DNA of 64,000 bases from Amphibalanus amphitrite (lineage: Eukaryota > Arthropoda > Thecostraca > Balanomorpha > Balanidae). The stretch spans positions 579,094 through 643,093 of the forward strand of contig NW_024881836.1 of NCBI RefSeq assembly GCF_019059575.1, written 5' to 3'. The notes beneath the pieces were generated by a model. It did not search any database and was not told where the DNA came from. It saw only the letters and a program-made list of their open reading frames with translations. This document shows, one piece after another, positions 4,694 to 26,713 of the stretch (position 1 is the stretch's first letter; the number at the start of each line of letters is the position of its first letter). A program made the translations under genes and the position numbers.

Positions 4694-5522
4694 TTGACCC
4701 TCGCATGTGTAGGGGGTCGTTTTTTGTAGGGGGTGTAGTTTTACACCTACTCTGAAAATTTCATGACCCTGACCTAAAAGACCTTTGACCTGTGACCTGA
4801 TTCTCGAGACCATGTTCGGCCGGAATCGCGATTTGGCGTATGTCAGCCCACATTATCTACGCGTTTCCAGTCTTTTTGTGATTGTAGACGTCCAAACGTG
4901 TGAAATGATGTTCTTCCCATGCATCACGGTGGGTGTGAAGGTCACCTGAAGGTCAGGTCAGGTCATTGACCTTTGATGACCTCGGTTCACTTTTTCGAGT
5001 TTTACATGTTTCTAGGGTAGTTTATCGGGCTGATTTCGAATTTAGCATCCATTTGAACGTTTACGAAGTAGTTTTAGTGCCTTCGTAACATGCTACGACG
5101 CCGTCAGTGGTAGTTGACACTTACTTTACTATGGATAGCCGGTAGGACGCCTAATGGTTGACCTGACCTGACCTGACACGATCTGGCCTAAATGCATGAA
5201 GAAATCATCTGTGATCAAAACTTACATCAGATATTCGTGATCAGCACCCCGAAAAACCCGATAACAGCTTCACTTTACGCAGTTCTAGCAGGTCCCGATT
5301 TTCCCGACTTTTGGAATATTGACCTGACCTGGAAGGTCAACCAATGACCTAAGACCTTAAAATTGGGTATCATCGGCTTCTTCTCGTCACGGGCAACACC
5401 CTCGTTTTTTCCCCGAAGCTCTAGCCCGATCAGGGGCCGAACGGCAGGGGGGTCTGACCGACCTCCCGCCCCTCCCCCTACACATTAGAAGCTGGAAAAC
5501 GCCGCACACATGCGAGGGTTAA
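4694..5522. mobile_element. TTAA-type MITE, copy A (piggyBac/Kolobok-like)
   Basis: This 829-bp non-autonomous element is bounded by TTGA at the left (a degenerate TTAA) and TTAA at the right. It has perfect 13-bp terminal inverted repeats, CCCTCGCATGTGT. It has no coding capacity. Its interior aligns by eye with the elements at 12764-14173 and 19480-20394 in the same order and orientation, sharing TTTCATGACCCTGACC, GACCATGTTTGGCC-type and GGGTATCATCGGCTTC phrases. It holds many AGGTCA/TGACCT half-sites; TGACCT at 4786-4791 and 4793-4798 form a DR1. TTAA target duplication with CCC-initial termini fits piggyBac; Kolobok also uses TTAA, so the superfamily is not settled. Confidence 0.8.
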
Positions 5523-7087
5523 TATTGTCATTTTGTCAATATTGACTACCGCAAAAAGTAAAAGCGGCCAACTTAGCCATTTTCGAAGATATCGGGCTAA
5601 AAATTTTTGACAGTGGGTCTACAGTAGACCATCACAGTAGAAAATGCTTCGAAAGATGGATAGTAGGCAACTTATCCTGAATTTGCCGTGCTGCATGGGA
5701 AGTAGTGTTGATGAGAAAAGGGTTTTTTGGTTCAGATTATTGTGGGTGCAGAATACATTGTCTGCACCCACTGGAGAAATATTGTGGGTGCAGCTGCACC
5801 CTTGCACCCATGGTTCCTACGCTTATGACTGGCCACCTATAGTCTATACGGCGGTATACCCGGCACCGCTGCATTGCAACTATAGACATTTAACGAGTTG
5901 TGGAATAGACGAGTTTCAGTTATGGACACTACACAGACGACTCTTGTCCACGCAAAGCACCGCCACACTGAACTCCAATCACAAGTGTAACGATAGAGCT
6001 GTGCCGTATGGGGTAGCCGCAGCTGTTCCTTTGCTGTGGCCAAAGACCGTGCTTAGGCTGCGAGGCAGCTCAACCATAGTTCACGGAGTGATCATAGATG
6101 ACAAAACGCCGCAGCAGGACTGAGGTTTATCATTCGCCTTGTGTACTGTGTAGCGTACTGTTCATCTGTCAGCTTTGTTCACACCATATGGAAATCATTG
6201 CTAACCGGTTCTTGCTGTTCTCGCCTTTTGTGCTCTGTCAGCGATGACATATTGTTTTGGGTGCGGCTTGTTGGTGCAAGGTGTGGACGGTGTAGCTGCA
6301 GATACAGCGCTGTGCAGAGATCCGAAGAAGAGTGCATAAAAAGGTAAGCTATGTCATCCAAACAAGAGACGTGACAGGTTAGGTGCATTGGTGGCAGGCG
6401 ACCGTTTAGAGTCATTGCTTCGGGTTCTTGGTATGGATAGCGTTATGGCTCCGTGCTTTACAGTCACTTCGACAAGACTTGCTCTCCTATTCCGTACCTA
6501 GCTCAACCTTATGGAAATGGTAAAAGGAACTGTGATGTCTTTTTACCTTCGTCGGTTGGAGGTATAGAATCAAACGGCCAGAATAACATTCTCGAGAGAC
6601 GGCATATGACACAATATTCCGCACATTTGCCAACAAAATTCAACTGATAGTGCGCAAGCATCCTTGCCCCACCATTCCCAGTTATGGTCTCAGCTGTTGT
6701 GAGTATGCTCCTCCAGCATGCACTCTTGCTGGATGGTATTTCAGCCATCAGACATAGGTACCCATGAAATGCTGAATCCATCTGACGGCCACTGACCGAT
6801 GCATAAATTGCTGACTGGAAAGACTCTACATGGCGGACAGCGTCGCTGACAAGTTCTCTCACTTAACTAGAAGTCAGAGACCTCCCTCGATGCCAGAGAA
6901 CGCCCGGTCAACTCGTAGTCGAAGGTCAGGAAACGTTTCCCGGTGACCGCAGAATAATTGTCAGCCTGGCAACAGCGCAGCGCCTGCCAGAAACCCTAAT
7001 CCGGTAGTCGAACATTGACCATTGCAAGACATGTCGAACAGCTATACGGTGATAGCTGCCGAGCGTCTGACTCCGTGTGACATATGT
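5523..7087. other. Non-coding stretch with a small hairpin
   Basis: No gene recognised. A perfect hairpin lies at 5743-5770: stem TGGGTGCAGA with an 8-nt loop. Related GTGGGTGCA phrases follow at 5793-5810. Open frames reach at most 159 codons and show no family signature. Confidence 0.5.
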
Positions 7088-7322
7088 TGACCTTTGACCT
7101 TTACTAGCCCCTCCTGACCTACACATGACCTTTGCTTGTCACCTGAGTCCCACTTCAGCCGCCATATGATACATGCAGCTGAAATCAACCAAGCATCCTC
7201 AGACTTCATTGGTTGATACCTGACCTTCATTTGACTTCCACGGACCTTCGTATGGCCTAGGTTAGAGCTATCCTAACCTCCATCTGACCTCTTACTGACC
7301 TCTACTGACCCCTACTGACCCT
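7088..7322. promoter_or_regulatory. Cluster of TGACCT nuclear-receptor-type half-sites
   Basis: TGACCT or close variants recur through this stretch. A perfect DR1 is present (TGACCT at 7088-7093 and 7095-7100, one base between). Further copies lie near 7116, 7126, 7220, 7278 and 7289-7320. No TTAA element boundary was found around it. Whether it acts as a regulatory site is inference; it may be remnant repeat DNA. Confidence 0.35.
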
Positions 7323-7639
7323 GTCTCTTACCACGGCTGACAGTACGCGTGACGGTAAGCCGGTCAGCAGTGCAGCCGGGTGCATTCGGAATTCTTTCAT
7401 CTTGCCGCTATGCGGATGGCATGCCAAAAGTGCGTCGGACGGGTATTCGGAATGCCATCGTAAGCTGCTATGATCTGGCTAAATGTCGGGGGCTGTCTGC
7501 CGTTCCTGCACCCCGCCCCCGTTCGGCCCCGGGCGCTGCCGGTCCGGTCGGCCGGAGCTGTCCAATCAATAGAGGAAAGTCGACGCTGCGTCCGGCCGCT
7601 GCCGCGAGACAAAGACCTCCCACGATCAACTGCGCCCGG

Positions 7640-7691
7640 TGACGTCATCAGCTCACTCCGGTGACGTCACGGGTGCAGCGTGTGATGTCAT
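7640..7691. promoter_or_regulatory. Pair of consensus CRE palindromes plus a variant
   Basis: The 8-bp CRE/ATF palindrome TGACGTCA occurs perfectly at 7640-7647 and 7662-7669. TGATGTCA follows near 7683. They sit at the edge of a GC-rich stretch (about 7500-7660). No gene that they would serve is recognised nearby, so the promoter assignment is tentative. Confidence 0.35.
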
Positions 7692-7977
7692 AAGTGTCAT
7701 GTAGGTAGTTGTAAAAGTCGCATCACCAATCAGTCGAAATGTGGAGGCATTTACGAGCCCAACTCCGGCCGGTTATGCACTTGGATCGAGTGACCGATCT
7801 GAGCCAATCTGTATCGCGATTTAACGGTGTCACTCTTCAAGAGTTCGATTCTCCTCATCCCAACAGCAGCATATCACTATTCACTGTAATGACTTACAAA
7901 AGGCACCTCATCAATGCTGGTAACACCGCAGTCTTGGTGCTTCACTGTTCAGAGTCTAGGGATGGCTTTATGTCCAT

Positions 7978-8345
7978 GGTTGCAGTCTCCGCCTACCGAG
8001 CGTTGGTAACTGCATTGCTGCATTGTCAATAACACCAATTTGTACAGAAATCCTCGAGACAGCTGCCTTCTAGGCTCGCGTTGCAGTCTCCCTGAAAATT
8101 ACCTGGCTATGTATGCTGTACCGTCGTACTCGGAGACTGCGTTTTCGCATAAGCGGTAGCACCAGTTCAGCGGAACCTCACACAGGGTTAGCCTACAACT
8201 CTACCGTTGCAGTCTTTTCGGTATCCTGCCAGCCATGCTGTGTCGGCGTGCTTGTAGACCACATTTGTAGAGCAGCGTGCATTTTACGACACCCATCTCT
8301 GTGCAGTTGCCCTCAATTATACCGACGTTGCAGTCTCCGGCAGGT
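7978..8345. repeat. Degenerate tandem repeat marked by GTTGCAGTCT
   Basis: The phrase GTTGCAGTCT recurs near 7978, 8082, 8206 and 8330, with the last spacings about 124 bp. Sequence between the copies has diverged. It is followed (8435-8560) by a CACTGACCGGCGAC / GACCAATGACC simple-type repeat. Confidence 0.5.
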
Positions 8346-8560
8346 CGATACGGCTGCGCCCCTGGCAGGTAGGTACTCGTATGCTTTGCCGGAGTGCAGG
8401 GAGACTTCGTGTCGGACCTGTCGCTAGCCCCCGTCCCGACTGACCAATGACCAGTGACCAATAACCACTCTCCGTTGTCCACTGACCGGCGACTACTGAT
8501 CACTGACTCGCCCCCGATCACTCCTTGACCACTGACCGGCGACCACCCTGTCCGTCGGTG

Positions 8561-10137
8561 TCCCTGGACCGCTTGGCGTGCAGTGTGACTATAGCCGCCC
8601 GCCAAACTGTCCACAATGATTAACTGAGGCAGCCCAAAAGGAAAATCGGGACAGGCCAGCCGTCATTGCAAACAGACGGAAATGACACGGGCAGGAAGGC
8701 TGGAGTGAGAGTCGGTAACAACTGTCCGAATCGGTGGTATTTGGAGTGGACACATCGTGGGGCTGAAACAGGTGTTTTGCTCTTGTTACAAGTGACAGAC
8801 AGCTCCTTGGACTGCAACAGAAACGGGTTTACCGGTAAGCCTGATGTGATCAATGAGCAGCCCCATCACCAGAAATAAATGCTGATAAAAACAGCACCAA
8901 ATCAAATGTGAATCAGCTTCATTGAAGTCAAGTACAAAGTACAAAATCAACACCGACCACGCCATCCGTCTATCACACGCGTAAGCGTTCTGTGCTAACA
9001 AGGCGATCCATATATCTTCCTGCGAGCCACTTATTCAGGTTGATACAGTATCTGTATGTCAGCACTGTGTGGTAAAACCACCAGCCACCGATCAAGGCCA
9101 CACATCTCCAACAAACCGGTAATCAAAGCCGGCCGGCGCGTCGCCTTCACTCGTATCTCGTTCCGCATTACTGTCACATTCAGCAGAGGACCGCGGGGAG
9201 GTCGACCAGCGACACTGGACACAGGAGGTGCCAGGGCCACCGGGGCCGGCCCAGCCAGCCGCTGAAATATGAGCCTGTTTACACCGCTGAGCATTGAGAC
9301 GGCGGGACGCCGGTGGTAGCGGCGGCGACGGTTGGTCTGGCCAGGCGCGGACAATGCGGAGCTGTCAGGTATCCGTTTCTAAATGGTCGGGTTATGACGG
9401 AGTCGGTGAGCGCCCTTTGATTCGGTCGCACGCGCCGGAGGCTCTGTCTTGCTCCAGCGCTGGCCACCTGTCGGTTGCCGGCCGGAAAAGCTGCCGTTCG
9501 CAGACGGAGGGAGGCCCATCGGCCGGCAGGGAGGGTGTCGCGCGCCATGTCGCTACCCAGTACCCCGACCAGTAGAGAAACAATGCCGGCTGGCGCGCGC
9601 TCGCCGCGACAAGGGTAAGTTTTATCGCCGGACGACGCCTCCTAGCACGGATGCCGTGATAGCTCGGTACTTTTTCGGCGGTTCGGGTGTTGGTTTGTTC
9701 AGGTGGCAGTGTACAGGACCGGCTGGGGCGGCCGGCGTCGGACTGAAGCACGCTCTACACATCACTGAGTCTCCATGGCCGCCCGGCGGCCGACACAAAA
9801 ACAACGTGCAGTCTTATTGTTATTGTCACAATGGCACAGCGATACTATCTCGGTGCCAATGCGAAAGACACGGCTTACCATGCACGGCAAGTACACATTA
9901 ATTGGATGAAAAACGCTGTCCCGCCAGTCGAAATTCTTGAATTGGAATAATAACAATACATCCGTGCATAATGGCACTAAACGTTCAAGAAAGACATCGA
10001 AGAGAACAGGTGTTACATTGACTAAATGAGTCATTCAGGTGGACAGTCATTGACGGAGTTAAGATTACAGTGTAGCCGAGCCGATGTCATTAATTCCCGA
10101 CTCTGCGCGACGGATGTTAATGCCAGGCCTGACTTAA
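8561..10137. other. Non-coding stretch, no gene recognised
   Basis: The 9120-9760 part is GC-rich, with open frames of up to 150 codons on both strands. None has recognisable domains or convincing splice structure, and they overlap one another antisense. I see no gene. Confidence 0.5.
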
Positions 10138-11162
10138 TAGGGGAGAGCGGGGCCAGTTGAAACACGGGGTCAGATGAAACATGGCTTTATTTTCAACAGT
10201 ATGCAACATATGGCGTTGCCGACACCACTGCGCATCCGCGCTCGACCACTTCCTTTGTCAACGGCGTTTGGGCGGCAAACGGACGGTAATTTTGATTTGA
10301 CACTTGTTTTTGTGTTTTTGAGGGGCGTTTGGGAGAAATCGTTTTAATGAATATTTTTTGATATCTCATATACCTTTGTTTGCTGAAAGAAGAACTCCTA
10401 GCTCCGGAATAACACCTTATTTGGCCCTTCATTCAGCATGATGCCGTTCCTCCAACTCGTTTGACATGTGCTTTACGGCGCGTGCGAGATGGCGGAAGCG
10501 GATGGGGTCAATTGAAACGCTTTTCTGAGGGTCAGTTGAAACAGGGCCACAGGCCGTTTCAATGGACCCCGGTGACCTTTGCAATGGTTATTGTTCAGGG
10601 GCTGTAAACATTAAAGGAAATAGTCCACCTTTGAAATGAGCTTTTAAACTGAAATAGTAGTTTAATAGAGCTCAATTTTTGACCCCTTTTTCTCCAGCCT
10701 TTTGCTTGAAAGCACACTATAGCCTGAGATATTTCTCATTTTCCTCATCCGCCCATTTTACCATAGTCTATGTACTTTATGTCACGTATTATGAGGAACT
10801 TTGCACTTTTAGCTTTCCAACGACCTATTGAATGTAGCATTTGGAAAAGTAAACCGGACAAAATATCTCCTTAAGAAAGTGGCCTTAAAGAGGAAAACAT
10901 TCCATTGTTAAGAATAGGTGCAATTGACCCCATAGGCTGGTTCAATTGACCCTCGCATCGGGGTCATTTGAAACGGGCGTAAAGCTGTTTTATAAGCATG
11001 CGTTTGGCAGCAAAATATGTTTGAAACATAATTTTACATATCTTAAAATAAAGCCAAAAGAGCATATTTTTCATGGCATTGTGCATTTTTCGATATGCCA
11101 ACTAGATCTCGCTGTGCATGTCAATATATAAAAAGTGGTTCAACTGGCCCCGCTCTCCCCTA
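10138..11162. mobile_element. TA-flanked MITE with GGGGAGAGCGGGGCC termini
   Basis: Inverted termini are GGGGAGAGCGGGGCCAGTTG at 10140 and its reverse complement ending at 11160. TA dinucleotides lie immediately outside (10138-10139 and 11161-11162). The 1,021-bp body has no long open frame. Inside, a GGGTCAATTGAAAC / GGTCAGTTGAAAC-type phrase recurs near both ends (10507, 10540, 10918, 10944, 10963). A TA target duplication suggests a Tc1/mariner-type element. A TTAAAGGAAATAGTCCAC at 10611 resembles the end of the MITE at 13485, so a decayed insertion may lie inside. Confidence 0.8.
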
Positions 11163-11922
11163 CCCAGCTAATCACCGTAAACCCCTTGTTCGTCCACCTA
11201 TCAACTATGGGAGGCTCTGAATTCCAATCAAAGACGAACTTATTGTGACGGTAGGGGTCACCGAAATACGTGGACGGCTGACAGCGGACATAGACCTAAA
11301 ATGTTCGAAACTTTTCACCTATACCTAAACTATGATAGTGGCAGCGGAGCCGGAGACCTTGCCAGACTGCAGTTGAAAAAAGACAGTACCTACACACCTA
11401 CCTACAGTAGAAGCGCGGCATGCAGAATCAGCACAGCAGGCAGAATCAGCACAGAACAAATACTGGGCGATGGGGCTGGAATGGAGATCGTGCAGAGTTC
11501 AACGCACCCTTCCGAATGACACCCAACAGGCGTAATGCATCATGTGTAGGCAATATTAACATACTCCTCATTAGAATTAGGGGCCAACGCTCGCATTACA
11601 ATTACACAACTTAGGATAATGATCAGTCATTACATGTTAAAGCGACTCATCCAATGAATAATATGCGCTTGTTCTGTCCACTGGATGCCTGCATAAGCTG
11701 TCTTTCAGCACGTAGTGAGCAGACACACAGCTGCAGTGGCGGATTTGAACCAGCCGACTGGGCACACCCGGTCATCAGGCGGTGCCCGGGGCCGCACCCA
11801 CGCGCGCGGGCCGCCGCTCGGTACGGCGCTGCACTTCTATAAATAATACCGGCGAGGCACGGCCCGACAGCCGGCCGGCGGCCGATGCACTGTGGGGACT
11901 TTGCCCCTCCTAGCACGACTTT
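11163..11922. other. Non-coding stretch, no gene recognised
   Basis: No recognisable coding region. A CCTACCTACC-type simple stretch lies near 11393-11404, and GC content is high at 11760-11900. Confidence 0.5.
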
Positions 11923-12310
11923 ACTCCTGCGGCGGTACGCCACAGTCAGCTGACCGCCGCGGCGCCGGGCAGCGCGGCGGAGCGCTGGGAGCCACGCGAC
12001 ATCTTCTGCTTTGATGTCTTGTAATAGCTGTTTGGGCGACGAAATTGAGCAAAAGATAAGAGTTTATTCCAATGCAGAATTTATGGGAGAATATTTTGAT
12101 ATATGTTTCCACACGTAACTCCTGCGGCGGTACGCCGCAATCAGCTGACCGCCGCGGCGCCGGGCAACGCGGCGGAGCGCTGAGAGCCGCGCGACATCTT
12201 CTGCTTTGATGTCTCGTAGTAGCTTTTGGGGCAAAATTGGGCAAAAGATAAGAATTGATTTCAATGCAGAATTTATGGGAGAAGATTTTGATATATGTTT
12301 CCACACGTAC
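11923..12310. repeat. Tandem duplication, 2 x 195 bp
   Basis: Two head-to-tail copies begin with ACTCCTGCGGCGGTACGCC at 11923 and 12118. Each ends with GATATATGTTTCCACACGTA near 12117 and 12309. They differ by scattered substitutions and small indels. The minus-strand open frames here simply read the duplication twice. Confidence 0.9.
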
Positions 12311-12763
12311 CACCGCGTATCAAACTTTGTAAGGCGGCTGTGATTTACCGAGTCAAATCTCCGAGACAAGTGGCATATTAACATTTTTCGTATTTCATTC
12401 AAAAATCATACCTTCAGATTATTTTTCGAACTTTTCATGCATATGCCTATATTCCTCATTAAATACAAAATTATAAAAACATGTCGCAACATAGAATTGG
12501 TGCTTGAATACACGAGTGAGCAGCGTTTCGTTGTCATGTAATTTTTCGCCTTATCCTAGGAGCACGGTGCTAGTCAGCGCAACCCTTCACTTTGTGACGT
12601 ATTTTGATGCATAGGTCATCATTTTTAAACAGGGGCGTAATCACTCCTTAAAAAATGGGCTGGAAATGTCTCCCTCCGGGGGCGGCATCAAATGCGAAGG
12701 GAAGGGCGGCACTTATATTTTGGGAGCCAGAGGTGAGTGTTTGAGGGCCGATGTGTTTGTGTA
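12311..12763. other. Non-coding stretch, no gene recognised
   Basis: AT-rich to about 12540, then mixed composition up to the TTAA of the next element. No gene or structured repeat was seen. Confidence 0.5.
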
Positions 12764-14173
12764 TTAACCTCGCCCGTATCGGGGGGGGGGGATCGAACGG
12801 ACCACCCCTCGGTTTTTCGCGGATAACTCGCGTAAAAAGCGGCCGATCGCGACGAAACTTTCAGTACCCTCGCGTTAATCAAGTTTACACCTGCCCTGAA
12901 AATTTCATGACCCTGACCCCAATGACCTTTGACCCACTTTTCGACACCATGTTTGGCAGGAATGGCGATTCGGCGTATGTCGGCTCGCATAAGCCGCGCG
13001 TTTGCGGTCTTTTCGTGGTTTCATGCGTTCAGACATGGGATATGATGGTGCTCCCATGCATAAGGGTGGGTGTCAAGGTCATCGGAAGGTCAGGTCAGGT
13101 CATTGACCTTTGATGACCTCGGTTCACTTTTTCGAGCTTTACATGTTTCTTGGTTAGTTTTTGGAGCTAAATTCCAATTTAGCAGCCATTTGAACATTTA
13201 CGAAGTAGTTTTGGTGCCTTCGAAACATGTTACGAAGCTGTCAGAGGCGGTTGCCACCCATTACGAATACCCGACAAAACCCTTACTGGTTGACCTGACC
13301 TGACCTGACCCGACCTGGCCAAAGACATGAAGACATCATCTATGATTATATTTAACGTAATATGCGTGATCAGCACCCCGAAAACTCCATAGCAGCCACC
13401 CTTTACGACGTTCTAACAGGTCCCGATTTTCCCGACATTTGGGTCATTGACCTGACCTGGAAGGTCAGCCGATGACCTAAGACCTTAAAGGAAATAGTTC
13501 ACTTTCACGAAATTATTTTTTTTTGCAATGGATTTGTGATTTTTTATGTTCAAAATGATCAGCAAAGAAAATAAAACCTTTTTACAGCAAAAGATTATTT
13601 TCTATATTTTTGATATAGGAAGAACTTTTCAGTTTCTGTAAGGCACACGCGATCCAGTATGAAAAGAGCATGGGTCCCGAAAATTCTTGGAAACTAGAGA
13701 AATTATCGCGGCCACCGGCATTTGGGCGATCTGCTCGTGCTTTTGTTACTGGAGCGCCTCACTGGAGCGAATTTCTCTAGAGTTCTCGTAGATAATTTCT
13801 CTAGTTTCTGAAGAATTTTCGGGACCCATGCTCGTTTCATACTGGATGCGAATATATGCAAGGCACACATCCTCAACGCAAGACACATTTTTCGGGACGA
13901 GAAATAGAATATCTTTGCCTAGGGTGATCGTTGGGCTGTAAAAGCTCCTGATTTATGCTCGTCTCAGCCCAAGCTACGGAACTGCTATTCCAGTTCAAAA
14001 CCCATGTTAAAATGTGAACTATTTCCTTTAAAATTGGGTATCATCGGCTTCTTCTCGTCACGGGCAACACGGTCGTTTCTCCGCGAAGCTCTAGCTCGAT
14101 CAGGGGCCAAACGGCAAGGTCCCCCCTATACGTTCGCGGCTGAAAAAAAAACACCAATACGGGCGAGGGTTAA
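12764..14173. mobile_element. TTAA-type MITE, copy B, split by a younger MITE
   Basis: Bounded by TTAA at 12764-12767 and 14170-14173. Termini are CCTCGCCCGTATCG and its partner CCAATACGGGCGAGGG. The interior matches copies A and C. Without the insertion at 13485-14031 it is about 860 bp. It holds TGACCT arrays, for example at 13085-13120 and 13290-13315. A GC-rich run of G (12781-12790) follows the left terminus, as in other members. It has no coding capacity. Confidence 0.85.
13485..14031. mobile_element. TTAA MITE with AGGAAATAGTTCAC ends, nested in copy B
   Basis: TTAA at 13485-13488 and 14028-14031 flanks inverted termini AGGAAATAGTTCAC. Copy A shows the empty site: there GACCTTAAAATTGGG is continuous, while here the element sits exactly at that TTAA. 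The element also contains an inner foldback: about 59-bp arms at 13649-13707 and 13791-13850 are near-perfect reverse complements, with an 83-bp spacer. An AAGGCACAC phrase lies on both sides of the foldback, which may mark yet another insertion. Confidence 0.9.
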
Positions 14174-15499
14174 TATACTTTCGCTTTGGGAAATTAAAGC
14201 AATAATGAGCAGTCAACTGACTACACGTTATAAGGGGCAGACGTAGATAACCCGCCAAGGCTCTGGTGTATGAGATATTGATACTTTATGAGGTAGATAT
14301 GCATGCGTAAGATGGGCGGTCAGCCCGTTGCTAGCAGTTTGACTTTGCCCTACTACGCACCGGATTGATAAATGATAGGTACACTCTTAAATAGTTCACT
14401 TCATTCAGGGTAGTTCAATTGCAATGGGATCTGAGTTCTGACTGGTTGGCGTCAAACCTAGCCGGCAATTTTAGGGCAGCCACAGGAAGTAAGCTATCCT
14501 GGTTAAAAGTTTACATAACAGAAAGCGGCGTATTTAGAAAATCGCGAAGGGGGGCAAGGGTTAGGAGGGCGCCACCTCACCCAAGGAGGGCGCTATACGG
14601 TGACGAGATAGAAATCCGTAACGATCGCTCAGGAGGGGGGGGGGGCGTTTTTACCACGCCACCAGTTTTTTTTTGCGTGTGTAAGGAAAGCTGCGACGCA
14701 CAGTGCTGCGAAACTTGATAGGTATTGGGTTAATCTCACAGTGGCAAAAAGGTTGCAAGTGATTGGCACATGCACTAAGTTCCTATTGCCAAAGTGTTCT
14801 TGAAATGCTGCGCCGAGGGTTTTCGAAAAAAAAACAAACACTTTCTCCGCTTCTTAAGCACATCTGATTTGTTCTCTGTTCAAAGCTCTTCTCACTCTTT
14901 TAGCAAAGTTGGTGGGGCAAAAATAAAGGTTGGTGGGACCTGCCACACCAACTGTGCAGGAAGCTCCGTCCATGGGTGACGGTGTAGAAAAAGTTAATTG
15001 GTGGCGGCATCCACACCATATTACCGTATCGGATTGATACCGGAGCACGAGATGCGTTAGTACAGGCTCACAACAAGAAGCAGCAGCGCAGCAACAAGCA
15101 TCAGAAACATAAACCGAAACAGGACTGCTCCTCATGAGAGCGGGTTAGCCTCTTCGGGCTTCTCACCTAAATTACCTCAGACCAGCCCCTATAGCCTTCT
15201 AGTTCTCACAGACCCATGCAGTGCTTAGCACATAACACATAACCAATTTCAATCGCCGAAATTTCAAATGCTTGTTGTTGCGGCCGTGCCCATTAACTTC
15301 TTTATCATACCTAATCCCTGTACCTAAATGTCATAATTGTAAGATCAATCTGCTAAGACCAAGCCGGGTTTCATGCATATGTAGAGCGTAGAGTTTTGGT
15401 TTACTTCATTCATTGTGCTGAATGCACGCTCATCTGTGGCAGTTTCGACAGGCAAGGCATCAAATATGTGAAAGAGAGCGGCACGCTGGGAAACGTAGA
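14174..15499. other. Non-coding stretch, no gene recognised
   Basis: Contains a G run at 14635-14645 and only short open frames. No family was recognised. Confidence 0.5.
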
Positions 15500-16725
15500 T
15501 AAATGAAGGGCAGCGATCAACAGCGGTCGCCAATAGGTAGAAGGGCTGCGATCGACAGGAAGGCACCAATGACTGAGAGGGCGGCGATCATCAGGTCCAG
15601 GAGAGCGCCAAATAGGAGGACCCCGATCAGCATTAAACAGGAAGGCGCCAAAAGACAGGAGAGCCCTGATAGACATTTGACAGGAGAGCACCAATAGGTA
15701 GGCTAGTGGCAAGCAGCAGCAGGGTGCCAATGGGTAGAAAGGCGGCAATTAACAGGAGGGCGCCAATAGGAAGGAGGGCCCCGGCCAACATTCACCTGGA
15801 AGGCGCCAGTAGGTGGGGGAGCACCGAAAAACAGAAGAATGTTAATTATCTGGAGGGCGGTGATCAGCAAGAGGGCACCAATGAGTAGGATGATGGCAAT
15901 CAACAAAAGGTCACGAATGGGTAGAAGGGCGGCGATCAACAGGAGGGCGCCAAAAGGTAGGAGGGCGGCGATTAACAGGAGTTCACCAATGGGTAGAAGG
16001 GCGGCGATCAACAGGAGGGCGCCAATAGGACGGAGGGGCCCGATCGACAATCAACAGGAGAGTGCCACCAGGCAAGAGGGCGGCGAGGAACAGGAGAGCG
16101 CCAATAGATAGGAAGGTGGCGATCAACAAGAGGTCGCCAATAGGCAGAATGACTGCAATCAACAGCAGGTCGTCAATAGGTAGGAGGGCGATCATTAACA
16201 GGAAGTCGCCAATGGGCGCAAGGTTGACGATCAACAGGAGGGCGGCAATGGTGAGGAGGGCGTCTTCGCCCAAGAGGGTGACATTGAACAGGAGGGCGCC
16301 TGCATGAGTAGGGCTGCGATCAACAGGAAGGTACCAGTGGGTAGGATGGCGCGGTGATCAACAGAAGGGCGCCAGTGGGTAGGAGGGAACACGAGGGTGC
16401 CAAAAGGAAGGAGGGTTCCGATCAACACTCAACAAGAGGGAGCCACGGAGGGCGCCACATGGGTAGGAGGGCGGCGATCAACAAGAGGATGCCAGAACGG
16501 AGGACGGCGGCAATCAAAATTCTACAGGAGGGCGCAGTAGGTAGGAAGGTGCCGACCAGCCGAAAGGCGCCAACGGATAGCGGGGCGGCGACCTACAGGA
16601 GGGCGCCTTTGGGTAAGGGCGCCGATTTATAGGAGGCCGCCAATAGGTAGGAGTATTCCGATCAAAATGAGGGCGCCAATAGGTAGGACGGCTGCGATCA
16701 ACAGGCTTAAATTGGCGACTACCAC
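15500..16725. repeat. 36-bp minisatellite array
   Basis: More than 30 diverged units read roughly AACAGGAGGGCGCCAATAGG followed by TAGGAGGGCGGCGATC. Because 36 is a multiple of 3, all frames translate as 12-residue repeats: basic Asn-Arg-Arg-Ala-Pro type on the plus strand, hydrophobic Leu-Leu-Ile-Ala type on the minus strand. Frames are repeatedly broken by stops, so these are not read as genes. Confidence 0.9.
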
Positions 16726-16960: not shown

Positions 16961-19479
16961 TACAGGGTGTTTCACAATTACCGTTACAAGAGTTCCCACT
17001 CAATTTTGGTGCACTTAAAGGTGGTTTTTCTGAAAACACGACTATACACCATTGGAAAGAGCACATAATTCTGGTCCTGGTTAATTGCATTTTGAATGCC
17101 CTTTGGACAGATAATTGGTGTAGCAGATGAAAGACTGATCCAAATGAGGTCCGAGTCTGCGATTGTCTCGAATATCAGGATTAGAGCCTGTGTGATAAGC
17201 TTGTTGCTCGCGGACCTGTTTGAAGACGGCTGTACATGGCTGCGTGGTGTAGTCAACAGGTATCTATTACGCACCTCCTGTATGAATTTCAAGTCTTCAA
17301 CGCACAGGCTTCAATGGCAATGACGTCATTTCCTACCTCGTGTCAGAAAGGTGACTTGCGTGCCGGCCGGCGAGCCGACCTGGCGGCTGGGATGTGTGGG
17401 TGGATTAACGCGTGCCCCCTGCGGCCCGCCGCGATGCGGATCGGGGCACTAGTGCATGAAACTCCGCAACAGCTGTCGGTCGCCAGGGGGCACACACATT
17501 CCGGGTCTTCCGGACTTCCGAGTCTTCCGGACTCAGAAACCCGCTTCAGTGATGGTCTGGGCGGCCGTCAGCCAGGCCAGCAAGTCGCCGTTGGTTTTTG
17601 TGCCCGAGGGCGTAAAAATCAACAAAGAAACCTACATCGAGACCATCCTTGAACAGACGCTGAAGCCGTGGGCCAAGAAGACGTACGGAGACAAGGGCTG
17701 GACTTTTCAGCAGGACGGCGCAACAAGCCACACCGCGCGCGTCACCCAACAGTGGTGCGAAGACAACTGCCCAGGCTTCATCACCAAGGACCAGTGGCCC
17801 CCATCATCTCCAGATCTGAATCCGATGGATTACACGATGTGGTCCGTGCTCGAGAAGGAAGCCTGCTCCAACACTGAAAGAAAAAAATACCACCCTAGTT
17901 AGTTTTTGGGTGGTGGTCATATTTTGAACAGCCTTTTACTTATGGTAAACCAGTTTACGATCCAAATACTAGGCCCAATATCAAAGGAATACTATGCAAC
18001 TACCAATGCTCATCAAAATACCATGGTCTTAGTACGGTAATATTTTTTCATCATACTACCTTGAAACTAAAGCATAACTAAGAAGAAACCAAAGCTCTAC
18101 TAACGCTAGTATTATCCTGGTACCGCCTACTAAGAAAAATACCACCCTAGTTAGTTTTCGAGTGGTGGTCATATTTTGAACAGCCTCTTACCTATGGTAA
18201 ACTAACTTACGACCCAAATACTAGGCCTAATATGAATGTAAAACCATGTGAATACCAATGCCAGTAAAAATTACCATGGTATTAACACGGTAACTATATG
18301 TCGTCATACCATGCCCAAAAACCCACGTGATACTAGCACGAAACTAGGACTTTACTATCGTTAGCTACTCCCTGGTAATGCTTACTAATGACTTATCATG
18401 GTAAAACCATCCTTTTGTCATCTGGATACCAGCTTTGCTTTGCTGGCCAACCATCGTAAAACAATAGTTTACTATGTGACATTTATTGTGATATTACCAG
18501 TCGGTTAACAGGATCTTACTAGTCATCAACCAGCATGCTTCATATGCTGTGCTTTAGCCTATCCATGCCAAATTTGTTTATCATTACGACAGCCACTTAC
18601 TGATGCACAACAGCATGCATGACAGTATCTACCTAGCAGTCGACAAAGCAGCTCTTCACTTTTCCAAAGCATCTACCTAGTAACCTACATGAAATATTTC
18701 ACACATAAAAAGCATTTGGCCACAAACAAAGTTACGTCTGCACATAACCAAACAACGCGCATGAACAACAATTATTACAGTTCACTTTATCATCACAATG
18801 CAATCGGTCTCTTTTCACACAATCGTTGAATGTCGCCCTTCCAGCGATTTATCACGCAACACCTTCTCCAAGGGCATTGGTAGCCATATACCGAAGGTTC
18901 GAACTTCGAAAGCCAGCTCTGGAAAAGAGCAGGCATTGATATAAGATAAACCAATGGAAAGATTGATTGTGTGTGCTGCAGTGACACTCTATCTCCTACC
19001 CCTCCCACCTTGACTCGCAGTGTCCCGTGACCTAGCTCCCAGTTTGATGAAACAAGGATTTAAGATAAGTTGTTTTAAAAAAATGGCAGCATCTAATAGA
19101 ACAGGGGATTTGTAGGGTGAGGAATTTAGCAAATTTGGGACATCAGGCCAGAGGCTGGTTCAGGTAAAATGCCCTATAATGAATTAATTGCCATGAGGTG
19201 CAGTGTTGAGTGTTGGCAATAATTCAAAAATTCTACTCTTAACCAGCGCCCCACTGGGGTATGTTCTGTAACGCACTCCACTGGGGGAGGCGGGGGCTAT
19301 TTATAGAACCCCCCCCCCCCCCCGCTCCAACTCCGAAACTACTGGGCCGATTGTCAAAACTGAAACGGCGTCTGATAGCCCTGGAAAAACTGTCGAGCAA
19401 AACCTAATTTTATTGACCTCGAGATCACCGTTGACGTCACAGGTCAGATCAAAATAAAAATTAGCAACGTTTTGGCTTG

Positions 19480-20394
19480 TTAACCCTCCCCCGTATAGGG
19501 GGGGGGTCGAACGGACTCCCCCTCGGTTTTTCGCGAATACCTCGCGTAAAAAGCGGCCGACCGCAACGAAGCTTTCAGTACCCTCGAGTTATAATCAATT
19601 TTACACCTACCCTAAAAAATGTAATGGCCCTGACTAATGACCTTTGACCTGTGACCTACTTTTCGAGACCATGTTTGGCCGGAATCGCGATTCGGCGTAT
19701 GTCGGCTCGCATTTGCCGCGCGTTTGCAGTCCTTTCGTGGTTTCAAGCGTTCAAACATGGGATATGATGCTGCTCCCATGCATTAGGGTGGATGTCAAGG
19801 TCACCAGAAGGTCAGGTCAGTTCATTGACCTTTGATGACCTCGGTTTACTTTTTCGAGTTTTATCAGCATCTTTCTAGGCTAGTTTTTTTAGCTGATTTC
19901 GAATTTAACAACCATATATGAACATTTACGAAGTAGTTTTGGTGCCTTCGTAACATGTTACGAAGCTGTCAGAGGCGGTTGCCACCTAGTGCACCTACTA
20001 CGAATACCCGGCAAAACCCTTACTGGTTGACCTGACCTGACCTGACCCGACCTGGCCTAAATGCATGAAGACATCATCTATGATCATAGCTAACATGATA
20101 TTCGTGATCAGTTCCCTAAAAAACCCAATAGCAGCCACGTTTTACGACGTTCTAACAGGTCCCAGTTTTCCCCACTTTTGGGTCATTGACCTGACCTGGA
20201 AGGTCAACCGATGACCTAGGACCGACGACCTAGGATAAAATTGGGTACCATCGGCTTTCTCTCGTCACGGGCAGCACGCTCGTTTTTTCCGCGAAGCTCT
20301 AGCTCAATCAGGGGCGAAACGGCAAGGAGGGGGTTCAACGGACCCCCCCTTAAACGTTCGTGGCTGGAAAAACACCAATACGGGCGAGGGTTAA
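19480..20394. mobile_element. TTAA-type MITE, copy C
   Basis: This 915-bp element is bounded by TTAA on both sides. It starts CCCTCCCCCGTATAGG and ends CCAATACGGGCGAGGG. It matches copies A and B along its length. Three TGACCT half-sites separated by single bases lie at 19638-19657, the densest DR1 cluster in the family. More half-sites occur at 19797-19845, 20028-20055 and 20185-20215. It lies within the long-inverted-repeat TTAA element. Confidence 0.9.
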
Positions 20395-20644
20395 CCCCCA
20401 CCCTACTGTGGGGAGGGCTATTCATAGCCCCTCTCGTGTTTACGCAATATCTTTAAAACCGCTGGACGTATCAAAACAAAGCTTTTAGGACCTTCGGCTG
20501 CATCAATTTATTTGACACCTTGTGCACTAATAAAATTTTCGTAGCTACTATAGATCGGCCGGAAATGACGCCAGAGTGACATCATGTTCGGCCGATTTTG
20601 ATGCAAAGCATTGAACAACGGTAATCGCTCTCAAGATCTGAGTT

Positions 20645-21820
20645 TTAACCCGGCAAGCGGTGGGCCTCCCGGCTACCTTCCGCGCGGTGGGAGGGGGGGG
20701 GGGGGATTTTTGACCCCCCCCCCGAATCTCCGAAGCTACTATGACGGATCGTTAAAATTTAAATGGCGTTCGATAGCCTTGTTAAATTTGTCGAGGGAAC
20801 TTCAATTTCATTGACCTCGGGGTCACCGATGACATCACAGGCCAAGTCAAAGATAAAATGTTTCACCGTTCACGGGTCTTTTAAGGAATGCGCTGCAACA
20901 TCGAGTAAAGGGCATTTTGTCAAAAATCAGCGATAGGGCGTGAGTTGCCTATTATACGAGCATATGTTGCTATTGGAGGTCACTGATAATACCAGGTCCG
21001 ATCACCAAGGGTCAGCACATGAACCTATCTTTACTAAGTAGGGTTGTGCGATGCATGTTTTATGGCCAATTTTTCATATTCGCCTCAATGGTGTTGGTTA
21101 TAAGACCATCAGGGACGGTTTTTTTGGTCACTTTCTGGTGGAGGTCAGGTCAATGTCAGGTCAAAAAGGTCAAATTTCAGGTCAAAGTTGATAGTTTCGC
21201 ATAAAATTGGTATTGATTCGATGCCACTCGTCACGGCGAGTCTAATGGTGGTCTTTGTTTTGCGCTTTGTGGTCTAGAATTGCCAAAATCGAGTTTGAAA
21301 ATTTGACGTCATTAATTTTGAACAGTTTTTTTTTGTTATAACTTGGCAAAAAGGAGTTATCGATCTAATACTTGGAATGTGAATAGAAGTCCATAGTGGC
21401 TATTACATATATTCCGTTTGTTTCGAAAATCGAAAAACTTTTGGGATTTTTTGGCTATTATATCTATTTCTTTTTATTTTTGGGGTCAACTTCAAAAACA
21501 AAATCGAGAGAACAGTATAGTAGCCCTGGTAATTCTACACATTTCATGTCTTGAACATTTTTATGCATAATCAAATTTATAGACCTGACAGCTCTTCCCG
21601 CGAAGCTTTTTTTTTTGGTCGACAATGGCAGAAATGACGTCACTCCGACGTAGCGGCCAACTTATCATAGCCTTTGGAAAAAAAAAATTGGTCACAATGT
21701 GCAAAAGGGTACTGAAAGTTTGGTGAAGATCGGCGCAGCGGTTCTGGAGATATATCGAAAAAAAAAACTAAAGATGGATGCAAAAAATGCCCCCCCCCCC
21801 CCCACCGCCTTGAGGGTTAA
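20645..21820. mobile_element. TTAA-type element, second family, nested copy
   Basis: TTAA at 20645-20648 and 21817-21820. Termini are imperfect: CCCGGCAAGCGGTGGG against CCCTCAAGGCGGTGGG. Long G/C runs lie just inside both ends. The interior matches the element at 25511-26713, with shared phrases such as GTTCACGGGTCTT, GATTCGATGC and TCTGGAGATATATCGAAAA. It is non-coding. Confidence 0.8.
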
Positions 21821-21985
21821 GCTAGATCCTTTTTTTGCATGGGTGGACTCTACAGGGCTACCAAACTGATTTCGGACTTTCGAAATGTTGAATATTTTGA
21901 AAATTATAAATATAAAAACTCAGAAATTGTATTTTTTATTTTTTTACATATACGTTTCTGAATGAAAAAAAGCAGAATATGACCA

Positions 21986-22188
21986 CGTTTCCATGGGCAT
22001 CACTGATCCGGATCAGTAAAAATGGATTAGCTAATCCAGTATAGTTAGACAATATATGAAAATGAAAATAAGGGATTAACTGATTATATAAGCCTAATCC
22101 ACTTGGAATTATATCATGTAACGAAGAGTTCGAGAAATATAATACGATTTAAGTTTGCTGATCCGGATCAGTGATGCCCATGGAAACG
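21986..22188. mobile_element. Palindrome-ended small MITE
   Basis: Perfect 31-bp inverted repeats occupy 21986-22016 and 22158-22188. They begin CGTTTCCATGGGCATCAC and contain the palindrome TGATCCGGATCA. Similarity extends a few bases further out (GACC/GGTC). The interior is AT-rich with further inverted GGATTAG/CTAATCC motifs. Total length is about 210 bp and there is no coding potential. I could not fix the target-site duplication. Confidence 0.75.
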
Positions 22189-23906
22189 GGGTCTATGTGT
22201 GTTTGAACACATATGCGTTGAATATATGTGAACTTCATCTGACAAACACCTTTTTTGTTGAAAAATGTCAACTTCAAAATTTGACCATTTTTGACCTAAA
22301 GTGACCTGACCTGACCTCAGCTATATTCAGCTAAAATGGCCTAAACTGACACATACAACACTGATTTCGATATATATGGCCTACATGAACCATAAAACAT
22401 GTCTCACGTCACCGATGCACGATATAAAGCTTTCGTGACCTGGGATGAGATGGCCTTGACCTGAAAAATTCGAAGTACAAGTTCGGTACCCTCAGGTTAT
22501 GTTACGCATATATTCACGAGTGTGCAAACAAAAAATGAGCCTGATCTGATTTGTTGGCCGGCGCCCAGAGTGCCAAGACGCTGATATTTTTACTTTGACC
22601 TGACCTGTGACGTCATCGATGACCTCGAGGTCAATGACATTAAGCTTCGCTCAACAATATTTCCAGGGCTACCAGGGGCCGTTTGAATTTTGACAATCGG
22701 CCCAGTAGTTTCGGAGTTAGGAGCCCCCCCCCCCCCACTGTAACGTGCTGTAACGTGCTGTGGGGCGCGTTAGAGCACATACCCCAGTGAGGCGTGGGTT
22801 AACAAATAAAAAAACACGTTGATTTCCGACGCTGGGAAATGCCCGCAATGATACCCACCCCACCACCCTCCCCCTACCCGGTCCAACAGGGTCTCAAGGA
22901 AATTCAACAACATGAACCGAAACAAAGGCTGCGATCTTTGCTGGAAATGGCACTCGTGAGATAAGTATTATTATGCTGAAGATACAACGACTTACTTGTT
23001 ATTTCCGAGTATCCTCCACCGTCAGCTACGCTAACCACCCACACAATCACCGTTCAAATATTTAAAACCACGGAGCACCTTCACAACGCCGGCGCGCGGC
23101 CGGAACTGACATGGCGGCGCCGCTGCAGCAGAGTCAGACGCACGTGGATTGTTAGTAAGGGTGTAGTGTTGTCATGGTGTTGCCATGGTATACCTTACCA
23201 TAGCAGCAGAAGCACACCCAGGGAACTGTTGCAAGAAATTTCTGGCCTTTCGTCCATAAAACTATTAATTGCTCAGGGTCTCAGCTAGTCCTTGGATGAC
23301 GCTCCTTCCAACATATCAAAAATTGGCAAACACCTCTATGGAAAGGAGGAGACTTGATCGCCGAATTCACCTGCTGGATCCGCCCGTGGAAAGGTTGATT
23401 TTACTATGGTAGGGAATATTAGCTTACGAGGGTATCTACTAGCCTCAGGTGGTTACCACCTTGTAAACTGGGGTACAAAACCACCCCTGATAAACGTAAC
23501 CATGGTAATATCAACATGTCAAGGCAGGATAGTATTCAGCACCATAGTAGGCTGGTAGAAATATGATGGTAGGCTGATGGTAAAATTTACCAAAGCTAGT
23601 AACTTAGTAAATTGATGGTAAAAACTTTTTTCAGTGAAACCGCACAAGAAGATCGACGATCTCAAGCGATCTCTGATCAGCGCCTGGCAGACGATCCCCG
23701 ACGCGGTTGTGCGTGCCGCAGTCCGTGACTTCAGGAGACGGTTGGCTGCCGCTGTGAAGGCTGGAGGCGGCCACTTCGAGTAGGACTTAAGGATGTTGGC
23801 CTCTGTGGTTTTGGGTGCATATGGTGCAATTTTGGCGCAAATAAAGTCATTATGCCCAGAGATATTGAGCTTTGATCTTGTAACGTTAATTGTGAAACAC
23901 CCTGTA

Positions 23907-25510
23907 GATAGAGCATTGTGGGGAGGGGCGGCTTATTGAGGGCGGCGGGAAGTTGTGGCGAGGGCAGCACATAGAGAGCGCCGAGGTACTCTGGGGAGGG
24001 GCGGCAAGTCATCTGGGGAGGGTGGCACAGACGGCGATAGAGCATTGTGCGGAAGGGCGGCACATTGAGGACGGTGGGGTTCTGTAAGGGGCGGCACAGA
24101 GAGCTCCGAGGAAATTGAGGGAGAGTCGGTGCGAAGGGGCGGCAGGGCATCTGGGAGGGGCGCCATGTACGAGTATAGAGGTTAGGTATTTTAGTGAGGA
24201 ACGGCACGTTGAGGTCAGGCGTATAGTGGACCGAGCAGTGCCGTTTCTTTTGTTTCGTTTTGAAGTCCCTAAACTAAATCCCCCAATTGCAGACTTCCTC
24301 TACCAGGGGCGGCATTTCAGCATCCCAAAAACGGGCTGGAATTTCCAGCGTTCCAGCGCGGTGGTTACGCCCATGTAATTTTAAAGCGATTTAAGGTCGG
24401 ATTCGGATACACTGGACAATTCTGCGTAGAAAGGATATAAAGAAAGTGGAAATCAAAATACTCGTATTTGTCACTTATGTCGTGCTAGGATCGCAAAAGT
24501 CCCCACGGTGCGATGGCGGCGGCGGGCGGGGTGCAGACAAACGGCAAACGGCGGGCAGGGCGCGGTCTGAGAGTGGAGTTATCGGCCGGCAAATAGTCTG
24601 AGAGGCGACGACAGCATACCTTAGCATCTGCTCCGGAGGAGCGCAATGCACTTGGCAATGACCAAGTATTGCAGACGTTCTATTTGTTTATTAGGGTCTT
24701 TATACACCCCGCCAACCGCTGAGATCCTGTCATTGTGCTAACTAAGCAGTCAGCTGTAGCATCTTCGCACAAGCCTCGTTCTGTCGCCTCGTTATTCCAC
24801 ATGCCATGTCACGTTTCCTCGTCACATCAGATCAGCGGACAGCAGATGAAAGCCACCGCGCGCCACCGCTCCCGTTCCATTGACGTTCAAACGGCTCCTG
24901 ACGCTGCATCAATCCTCGATAATCCATCTAATCCATCCCAGTTCGATCCGCACCACCACTGCCACCGCGTCCTGTCGACCAATTTGTCCGCGCCGGTGTG
25001 CAATTGGCGGCCTTTGATCCGGCGGCGTCGGGGCGCGGTGGGAAGATGGGAGACTGCGGTCGGTGGGCGCCGCGCCGCTCCCACCACCCGAACACAGCAG
25101 TGCAGCCCTCCGCCGGCCAATGGTCGGCGATTAGCGCCGCTCGAGGAGGCGGCGAACCTGCAGTGGGCGAGGCCGCCGGACGGACGCAGCCCCGGGCGGT
25201 GGGGTGCAGGTTCTGACGGACAAGGGCAGAACTGGGAGCTCCAACGACCTCGGTGCTTCTGGGAAGCAGCTGTGTGCAGTGGGCTTTACGCACGGATGGC
25301 ACGGAAGATCCGGCAGAGGCCGAGCTAGTGGAAGGGAGGGACCGCGCAGCTGTGAAAAGAGGAAACCTCCCTCCCTTACTCTTTAGTGCATGCATGTGAA
25401 GCAAGTAACACTGGCCAAGTCTTCCCATTTTTTTTTAACAACCCAAACACATGAGTCCATCGGTGGCAGCCATCCAAATAATGCAGCACTACAATGTGTC
25501 AGTGTGCACC
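23907..25510. other. Non-coding, GC-rich repeats, no gene recognised
   Basis: 23907-24170 holds degenerate GGGGAGGGGCGGCA-type units, probably related to the minisatellite on the other side of the mariner insertion. 24500-25330 is GC-rich, with an open frame of 197 codons starting at 24735. It has no recognisable domain and a strong overlapping antisense frame. I do not call a gene. Confidence 0.45.
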
Positions 25511-26713
25511 TTAACCCGCGCCCTGGTGGGGTCTGTTTATAACGCGACCTGGTGGGGGGGGGGGCTATTTTTTGCCCCCCCCCTCGTATCTCCGAAACTA
25601 CTGGACGGATCCGCAAAAAAAATTCAAACGGCGTTCGAAAAGCCTGTCAAATTTGTCGAAGAAAACCAAATTTTATTGACCTCAGGGTCACCGATGACGT
25701 CACAGGTCAGGTCAAAGATGAAATGTTTCACCGTTCACGGGTCTTCTAGGGAATGCGCTATAACACCGAGGAAAACGCATTTTGTCGAGAATCAGCGATA
25801 GGGCGTCAGTTGCCTAGTAGATATGTTGCTGTTAGAGGTCACTGGTCATACCAGGTCAGGTCACAGGTCAGGTCACCGAAGGTCACCAAGGGTCACCACA
25901 TGAACCCAACTTTACTAAGGTTGTGCGATGCATGTTTTATGGCCAGTTTTTCATTTCCAACTCAATGGTGTTGGTTATTAGACCATCAGGTACGGTTTAG
26001 GTCACTTTCTGGTGGAGGTCAGGTCAAGGTCAGGTCAAAAAAGGTCAAATTTCAAAGTTGATATTTTTGCATAAAATGGGTATTGATTCGATGCAGCTCG
26101 TCACGGGGAGTCTAATGGTGGTCTTTGTTTTGCGCTACGAGGTCTAGAATTGCTGAAAATTGAGTTTGAAAATTTGACGTCATCAATTTTGAACAGTTTT
26201 TTCGCTATAACCTGGCCAAAAAAAAGAGGTATCGATCTCAAATTTGGTATGTAGATAGAAGGCGGTAGGGACTATCACATATATTCCGTTTTTTTGAAAT
26301 TCAAAAAACTTTTTTGATTTTTCGGCTATTATATTCAAAAAATTTATTTTTTGATTTTTGGGGGTCAAAATCCAAAAGTTTAAAAAATTCGAGATAGCAG
26401 TTTTGTAGCCCTGTCCATTTTACAGCTTTTATGTCTGTATCATTTTTCTGTATTTGCAAAGCTATAGGCCTGACAGCTCTTCCCGCGAAACCCTTTTTTG
26501 GGTCGAAAACGGCAGAACACGACGTCACTCTGACGTCATTTCCAGCCAACCTATCATAGCCTTTGGAAAAATTTTTGGTCACAATGTGTAAAATTGATGT
26601 CCGGGAGGGTACTGAAAGTTTGGTGACGATCGGCGCAGTGGTTCTGGAGATATATCGAAAAGTCTTGAGGGGGGGCAAAAAATAGCCCCCCCCCCCACCA
26701 GGTCGCGGGTTAA
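25511..26713. mobile_element. TTAA-type element, second family, intact copy
   Basis: This 1,203-bp element has TTAA on both sides and termini CCCGCGCCCTGGTGGGG / CCCGCGACCTGGTGGGG. GGGGGGG...GCCCCCC tracts lie near both ends around a CTATTTTTTGC phrase. It contains clustered half-sites, notably AGGTCAGGTCACAGGTCAGG near 25851-25872, and again at 26015-26045. It is related internally to 20645-21820, and by its left arm to the long-inverted-repeat element at 19239. No transposase. Confidence 0.85.

Follow-up and report, generated by a model that had tools for sequence, protein, structure and literature searches.

The DNA examined here, a 64,000-nucleotide stretch of the Amphibalanus amphitrite genome (contig NW_024881836.1, positions 579,094 to 643,093; hereafter the window), contains a set of short TTAA-ended transposons, copies A to G, that are rich in the hexamer AGGTCA (TGACCT on the other strand), the half-site of nuclear receptors. 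The sequence-only reading of the window had treated these as one TTAA family; repeats, BLAST matches and end motifs instead divide them into two, family I (A, B and C) and family II (D, E and G), both belonging to a wider clan with ends of the form TTAACC(C)...GGTTAA. Across this clan, clusters of the slightly broader motif RGGTCA are laid out in nucleosome-length steps of about 168 bp. This spacing formed no part of the sequence-only reading, and we did not find such spacing in a transposon in the open-licence literature, searched by titles and abstracts, with most subscription journals outside its scope.

The three family I copies lie on the + strand. Copy A (4694-5522, 829 bp) has the left end TTGACCCTCGC, which reads TTGA instead of TTAA, and the right end GCGAGGGTTAA; copy B (12764-14173) begins TTAACCTCG and is interrupted at 13485-14031 by a 547-bp insert whose ends, TTAAAGGAAATAGTTCAC and GTGAACTATTTCCTTTAA, differ from those of B and which holds no AGGTCA; copy C spans 19480-20394 (915 bp). 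The TTAA insert in B is presumably Kolobok/T2-like, a label we use provisionally, and an end resembling its TTAAAGGAAATAGTTCAC end is also present at 10611-10662. In family II, copy D (20645-21820, + strand, 1176 bp) is nested within copy G (20391-22802, - strand), and copy E lies at 25511-26713 (+ strand, 1203 bp); F, the left fragment of a family II-like element, begins TTAACCAGC and occupies 19239-19479 (+ strand). The left part of family I (12842-12890) and the right part of family II (26586-26634) have a 49-bp stretch in common, inverted and 84% alike.

These features are those of piggyBac-type miniature inverted-repeat transposable elements (MITEs), with TTAA at both ends (the left end of A reading TTGA), CCC...GGG terminal inverted repeats, a length of about 0.8-1.2 kb and no long open reading frame (ORF) in the window copies. 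The left ends read TTAACCC, the end pairs listed agree at 9 to 14 of 14 bases, and ORFs overlapping the copies reach at most 151 aa, stop to stop. Pfam searches of eight window ORFs, none of which lies in an element, did not find a transposase. PMC10813416 gives CCCTC, along with related sequences, among the 5' motifs of piggyBac. What distinguishes the present elements from such MITEs is the recurrence of RGGTCA clusters about every 168 bp, and the fact that no transposase with matching ends was found at the eight transposase loci discussed below.

Half-site content, arrangement and conservation

The elements hold 79 exact half-sites in 6468 bp, compared with 55 in the remaining 57,532 bp of the window. 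Copies A to E contain 16, 14 (insert excluded), 15, 7 and 15, respectively, where dinucleotide shuffles (300 per element) average 0.56, 0.33, 0.46, 0.35 and 0.53; the highest count in any single shuffle of A to E was 4, such that each element exceeds all 300 of its shuffles. The half-site richness claimed by the sequence-only reading is thus borne out by the comparison with composition-matched shuffles that it had itself named as a refuting check. The window outside the elements is also enriched, its 55 half-sites comparing with a shuffle mean of 26.0 and a maximum of 36 (100 shuffles). At 29 further loci, element-matching DNA holds 438 half-sites in 26.9 kb, and the flanks hold 90 in 72.8 kb.

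Within the elements, half-sites are grouped into clusters. Copy A has four, at 4770-4798 (three sites), 4939-4982 (six sites, including a perfect inverted repeat, AGGTCA-T-TGACCT, at 4960-4972), 5159-5174 (three overlapping sites) and 5320-5350 (four sites); copy B has the like at 13076-13119 (six sites, with a perfect inverted repeat at 13097-13109), 13291-13306 (three overlapping sites) and 13448-13478 (four sites). The triplet with 1-bp gaps that had been reported in copy C is present, as TGACCT at 19638, 19645 and 19652 (19638-19657, - strand). Copy E has three clusters within 25677-26047 (+ strand), of 3, 6 and 6 sites, with AGGTCA on the + strand in 14 of the 15. Elsewhere in the window, three half-sites at 33852-33887 (- strand) are flanked by TTAACCCGCGCCC ends (33492 and 33926), and it is possible that these sites and ends are a remnant of the same TTAA clan. 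Two further groups pointed out previously, a seven-site cluster at 7088-7301 (- strand) and clusters at 52574-53005 in a gene that the sequence-only reading labelled CENP-E, consist of real half-sites, but a search for paired TTAA ends around both found none.

Conservation was assessed in a larger set of family I copies. A query holding three half-site blocks, a choice that makes the sample lean towards well-kept copies, gave 5608 first-look candidates genome-wide (807.55 Mb, 2644 contigs); 40 of them were scored, all 40 matched, and the best-scoring matches were made into 30 loci. After removal of L036 (which is copy B), L037, L043 and the partial hits, 29 copies from 27 loci were left, and these, together with A, B and C, make 32. 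Counting pairs of adjacent half-sites at distances of up to 12 bp in these copies (n=305), we found that by far the commonest arrangement is an overlap by one base (AGGTCAGGTCA), with 152 pairs; the others are everted repeats with 3-bp spacing (ER3, 31), inverted repeats with 5-bp spacing (IR5, 27), direct repeats with 1-bp spacing (DR1, 26), DR5 (23), DR4 (20), IR1 (16) and others (10). DR1, the spacing that the sequence-only reading had put forward, is therefore present only in a minority of close pairs, and we rejected it as the organising unit; a fixed DR1 spacing of dimers is not found, and the left block that bears the DR1 pair is missing from 11 of the 32 copies. An inverted repeat with a 1-bp spacer, RGKTCA-N-TGAMCY, is found in 30 of the 32 copies, 16 of which have it in perfect form; ecdysone receptor sites are generally described as having this arrangement. 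Two receptors could hardly sit together on half-sites that overlap by one base.

Half-sites change more slowly than the DNA around them in family I. When sites are defined from one of copies A, B and C and identity is taken between the other two, site columns are identical at 0.933-0.987 and the remaining columns at 0.769-0.852 (2-4 of 691 circular shifts reach the site value); excluding CpG columns gives 0.943-0.987 versus 0.793-0.864 (2-5 of 583 shifts), and isolated and inverted sites are conserved equally. Among the 32 copies, half-site columns have 0.0215 non-CpG substitutions per base and the other columns 0.0510, and 1 of 687 circular shifts gives as low a value at sites; when sites are taken from copy A only, diversity among the 31 other copies is 0.0365 at sites versus 0.0766 (2 of 605). 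Copy A itself matches the 32-copy consensus at 0.851 overall and at 0.988 in half-site columns. Singletons occur at 0.0074 at sites and 0.0131 elsewhere (4 of 687 shifts), and changes shared between copies at 0.0141 and 0.0379 (11 of 687); since the ratio of sites to elsewhere is 0.37 for shared changes and 0.57 for singletons, these rates suggest that selection acts mainly on source elements, and less on single copies after insertion. In family II, E-G identity with sites defined from D is 0.816 at sites versus 0.566 outside (27 of 1084 shifts as high), sites defined from E give 0.735 versus 0.522 (5 of 1084), and sites defined from G give 0.906 versus 0.822, which is not significant (184 of 1084). 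Conservation among copies had been the second check that could have overturned the earlier claim of half-site-loaded mobile DNA, and for family I the claim stands.

Nucleosome-length spacing of RGGTCA clusters

To look beyond the window, we used sixteen 10-kb stretches (160 kb, L066-L081) from contigs longer than 400 kb, picked by contig number and unseen, though not by random draw. Of 120 CpG-free anagrams, AGGTCA occurs most often both in the initial 40 kb, with 105 occurrences against a median of 17, and over 80 kb, where the figures are 201 and 35.5; in the 80 kb AGGTCA is the second commonest hexamer of all, behind CCCCCC. Together with the conservation of family I sites, this supports the earlier suggestion that mobile DNA is spreading AGGTCA arrays through the genome. 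Further TTAACC...GGTTAA elements with clusters lie at L066:8354-9367, L068:394-1393, L068:5179-6375, L075:5557-6563 and L080:7144-8323, and most elements hold 7-21 exact half-sites. Two other such end pairs, L067:4401-5002 and L075:2819-3695, hold none; ends by themselves therefore do not imply arrays. The clan is a mosaic, in that its elements share parts with one another and with families I and II (L066 with L075, for example, and E with the first L080 element, L080a), and the 15 elements available fall into four groups at 15% coverage.

Some relatives have a composition of their own. The element at L051:600-2094 and its kin at L054, L056, L057, L058 and L059 combine the right part of family I, including its three half-site blocks, with another left part that consists of a degenerate short tandem repeat. 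At L066:8960-9080 and L068:685-815, a long inverted repeat (CTCGTCAATCCGCATCGAATGATAT...) encloses the densest half-site cluster. A search for relatives in IMG/VR gave 34 stretches with AGGTCAGGTCAGGTCA and one more, but among the matches listed, only the motif itself was shared with the elements.

Distances between half-site pairs in the 160 kb peak at 167.6, 331.4, 502.6 and 676.0 bp. On-phase pairs of AGGTCA outnumber off-phase pairs by 535 to 46, a score of 10.6, where the 150 commonest hexamers have a median score of 1.00 and the next seven scorers all overlap AGGTCA. The idea of a period arose from L066-L069, and the counting windows were fixed after L066-L073; the ratio is 135:17 for L070-L073, 185:25 for the later L074-L081 and, with families I and II masked, 59:6 for the DNA flanking the 29 family I loci. 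Consecutive clusters (at least two sites each, less than 600 bp apart) in L070-L081 are separated by 140-200 bp in 23 of 29 cases (mean 167.5 bp, standard deviation 13.0), and in 11 of 15 when L074-L081 are taken alone. Non-redundant spacers fall in the same range in 18 of 24 cases, the two null models having means of 2.2 and 4.4 (0 of 20000 in each). Taking one element from each of the four sequence groups, formed with the motif masked and represented by the member with most sites, 16 of 20 intervals are of 140-200 bp, ends counted (null 3.5 +/- 1.7, 0 of 4000). The element ends keep to the same measure, with intervals of 140-200 bp from the end to the outermost cluster at 12 of 15 left and 12 of 15 right ends (24 of 30). 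In the window itself, copy C has cluster centres 168, 340, 556 and 722 bp in from its left end; the centres lie at 170, 335 and 518 bp in D, and at 185, 350 and 512 bp in E.

The DNA between clusters has a rhythm of its own. We analysed sets of 44 and 57 spacers, which were pre-chosen at centre distances of 125-215 bp and so cannot themselves prove the period. For 21 non-redundant members of the 57, the Fourier power of AA/TT/TA dinucleotides is 3.16 at 10.0 bp, as against 1.36 +/- 0.29 in dinucleotide shuffles (z 6.3; 0 of 200 as high), and other periods between 5 and 20 bp, save 9.5-10.6, are close to the null. Genomic comparison agrees, with a power of 3.12 at 10.1 bp versus 1.38 in background (952 segments) and 1.40 in AT-matched background (354 segments; 0 of 5000 in each case). 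A 10-bp AA/TT/TA rhythm is of the kind that favours wrapping on the histone core. Both a period near the nucleosome repeat length and a 10-bp dinucleotide periodicity, the latter uneven, are thus features of these elements, as they would be of a nucleosome array.

The half-site also tolerates change in a particular way. Counting one-mismatch forms outside exact sites, in cluster regions versus background, we found GGGTCA to be the most enriched (33 in cluster regions, 15.9x background); AGATCA reaches 7 (3.8x), and the remaining forms, apart from three considered below, reach 0-8 (0-2.5x). The tolerated motif is thus RGGTCA, not RGKTCA, a tolerance of the kind expected of a nuclear-receptor element. 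Random decay would raise all transitions alike, yet it is GGGTCA that is in excess, and this points to a binder that accepts RGGTCA.

Interpretation and alternative explanations

We propose that these elements are non-autonomous TTAA transposons built as strings of units, each of nucleosome length (about 168 bp), with RGGTCA clusters at the unit borders, an interpretation that we prefer and yet hold tentatively, with a little less than even confidence. The spacers would be taken up by nucleosomes, a likely but unproven step, and the clusters would then lie in the linkers. A host protein that binds RGGTCA could occupy these linkers without evicting the nucleosomes; nuclear receptors are the most likely binders, though not the only candidates, and the genome has 77 matches to zf-C4 at E <= 0.001, of which 16 span model positions 2-69 or 2-70 of 70. 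Once bound, such a protein may keep the array in register and recruit co-factors. The element's likely gain would be regular, accessible chromatin in the cells in which it moves, with many ready-made binding arrays for the host as a side effect. A bolder form of the proposal, which we consider doubtful, is that the clan codes its own chromatin, such that each insertion, genome-wide, would bring a pre-set nucleosome chain with a receptor landing cluster in every linker, and hence a phased, hormone-addressable array.

Several observations weigh against the layout as we interpret it. The periodic signal is concentrated in few stretches: without L075 and L080, L074-L081 give 22:15 only, and the signal therefore comes from the stretches that hold elements. 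Paired-end elements (13.9 kb) account for 153 of the 349 sites in the 160 kb, and 196 lie in the other 146.1 kb; the clan being a mosaic, its elements are not fully independent; and the right halves of D and E are without clusters. The 10-bp rhythm reaches a power of at least 3 in only 8 of the 21 spacers (median 2.0), its phase is unlocked to spacer centre, edges or clusters, GC-type dinucleotides give 1.30 at 10.0 bp (a figure without a null), and terminal segments are weak (1.83, 11 non-redundant). Interior segments that hold no clusters show the rhythm just as strongly (3.15, 11 non-redundant), and it is therefore not tied to clusters. Conservation is weaker in family II, varying with the defining copy as described above. 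As to the motif, ACGTCA (29, 6.2x), which we read as coming mostly from TGACGTCA, and AGGTCG (11, 5.0x) are also raised, and AGTTCA, likewise a receptor half-site, is hardly enriched (5, 1.8x).

The alternative that survives best, although we regard it as rather unlikely, is that the clusters are sites for the elements' own transposase, multiplied to help end synapsis, with a spacing that reflects assembly of the complex. The outermost clusters do lie at a near-fixed distance from the TTAA ends, the motif is kept by families I and II though little else is shared, and arrays of transposase sites occur in other transposons, according to PMC11707139. However, the arrays extend through the interior of the elements, and in D and E the right half has none. 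The piggyBac transposase loci that we examined also lend this alternative no support. The genome has 116 matches to PF13843, many of which score equally and lie in open frames some 570-610 aa long (604 or 569 aa), and because many copies share equal scores and open frames, piggyBac elements may have been active recently in this genome. At the 8 of these 116 loci that we examined, we found neither clan ends around the transposase nor AGGTCA arrays within a transposase-bearing element: the five with a recognisable end pair hold 0, 1, 2, 4 and 1 scattered half-sites, the other three hold 0, 2 and 4 in 4.1 kb, and the element ends (CCCATTA.., CCCAGAT.., CCCAGG..) are unlike those of the clan. At L086 a transposase-bearing element sits within a clan element, with arrays on either side, and at L083 an array lies just past the right end of such an element.

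The clusters might alternatively act as ordinary enhancers, through receptor response elements of the DR1 type or the inverted-repeat type of the ecdysone receptor, in which case their spacing would have no meaning for chromatin. The RGGTCA tolerance and the near-universal 1-bp inverted repeat of family I are consistent with this, and Drosophila EcR-USP is reported to act through ER6, IR0, IR4, DR1, DR4 and DR5 in a yeast assay (PMC5494300). We nevertheless think it quite unlikely, since one-base overlaps far outnumber DR1 pairs and a period of about 168 bp is not predicted.

To much the same degree we doubt that the period was merely inherited from an ancestral structure, with elements that are mosaics of shuffled modules of about 165 bp, or descendants of an old tandem repeat, in which the motif-rich borders alone remain recognisable. 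Modules are indeed shared in varying combinations, as between L066 and L075 or E and L080a, and some central modules are inverted repeats. Against this, the 44 spacers fall into 18 groups without mutual similarity, the similar spacer pairs within 1.3 kb number three and are all inverted, and there are no direct-repeat spacer pairs inside any element, on which ground we rejected tandem-repeat ancestry; nor does this explanation account for family I motif columns that are better conserved than the DNA around them, or lead one to expect the 10-bp rhythm.

Two further explanations are very improbable. The blocks might be kept for DNA or RNA hairpins in which AGGTCA blocks pair with TGACCT blocks, and the one element that we folded does so better than its shuffles (B 13050-13489, z -3.97, 0 of 100; other strand z -2.92, 1 of 100), but the sites in E run in one direction and could not pair with one another, so that hairpins were rejected as a general cause. 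Likewise, half of the close pairs are in a 5-bp register and TCAGG is a telomere unit in beetles, but AGGTCAGGTCA as a mere (TCAGG)n telomere-like or low-complexity repeat was rejected, as long runs are absent from the window, where they stop at three to four units, (TTAGG)2 is absent, and isolated and inverted sites are conserved equally.

Neighbouring features and significance

The rest of the window contains several features apart from the elements. An ORF at 38702-40648 has a full AtuA domain (E 4.8e-134) and an AtuA ferredoxin domain (2.4e-30) by Pfam; the AtuA family has been described from bacterial terpene use. Long open frames at 56249-63362 are made up of numerous tandem repeats (42, 81 and 123 bp) and look coiled-coil-like, with a weak similarity to the CENP-F leucine zipper that falls below the cut-off. 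A minisatellite with a 36-bp unit in about 11 copies and a higher-order organisation of 259 bp occupies 15500-16700, and inverted 41-bp repeats of CGTTCCCAT...ATGGGAACG palindromes lie at 35890-35930 and 37280-37320.

The nucleosome-length layout resembles several known systems in part. In alpha satellite with CENP-B boxes, a protein-binding box likewise recurs at about the nucleosome repeat length; here, by contrast, the units are not sequence repeats of each other and lie in dispersed TTAA elements. Alu repeats, too, are a mobile family that disperses nuclear-receptor half-sites over a genome, with DR2 in AluS (PMC1785376) and HNF4alpha sites (PMC3252374), although they are retroelements with few sites, whereas the present DNA elements mostly carry 7-21, conserved and in nucleosome-length steps. 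Zebrafish EnSpmN6_DR, a non-autonomous DNA transposon, disperses p53 sites (PMC3485254) and thus differs in factor and superfamily; a nucleosome-length layout is not mentioned in the portion of its abstract available.

If our interpretation is correct, the elements would be natural tests, at many sites, of the joint control of nucleosome phasing by DNA sequence and a factor bound in the linker. They would also represent a new route by which mobile DNA can distribute regulatory arrays, by the nucleosome instead of by the single site. Given 5608 first-look candidates for family I alone, 40 of them scored, this genome could be affected to a large extent.

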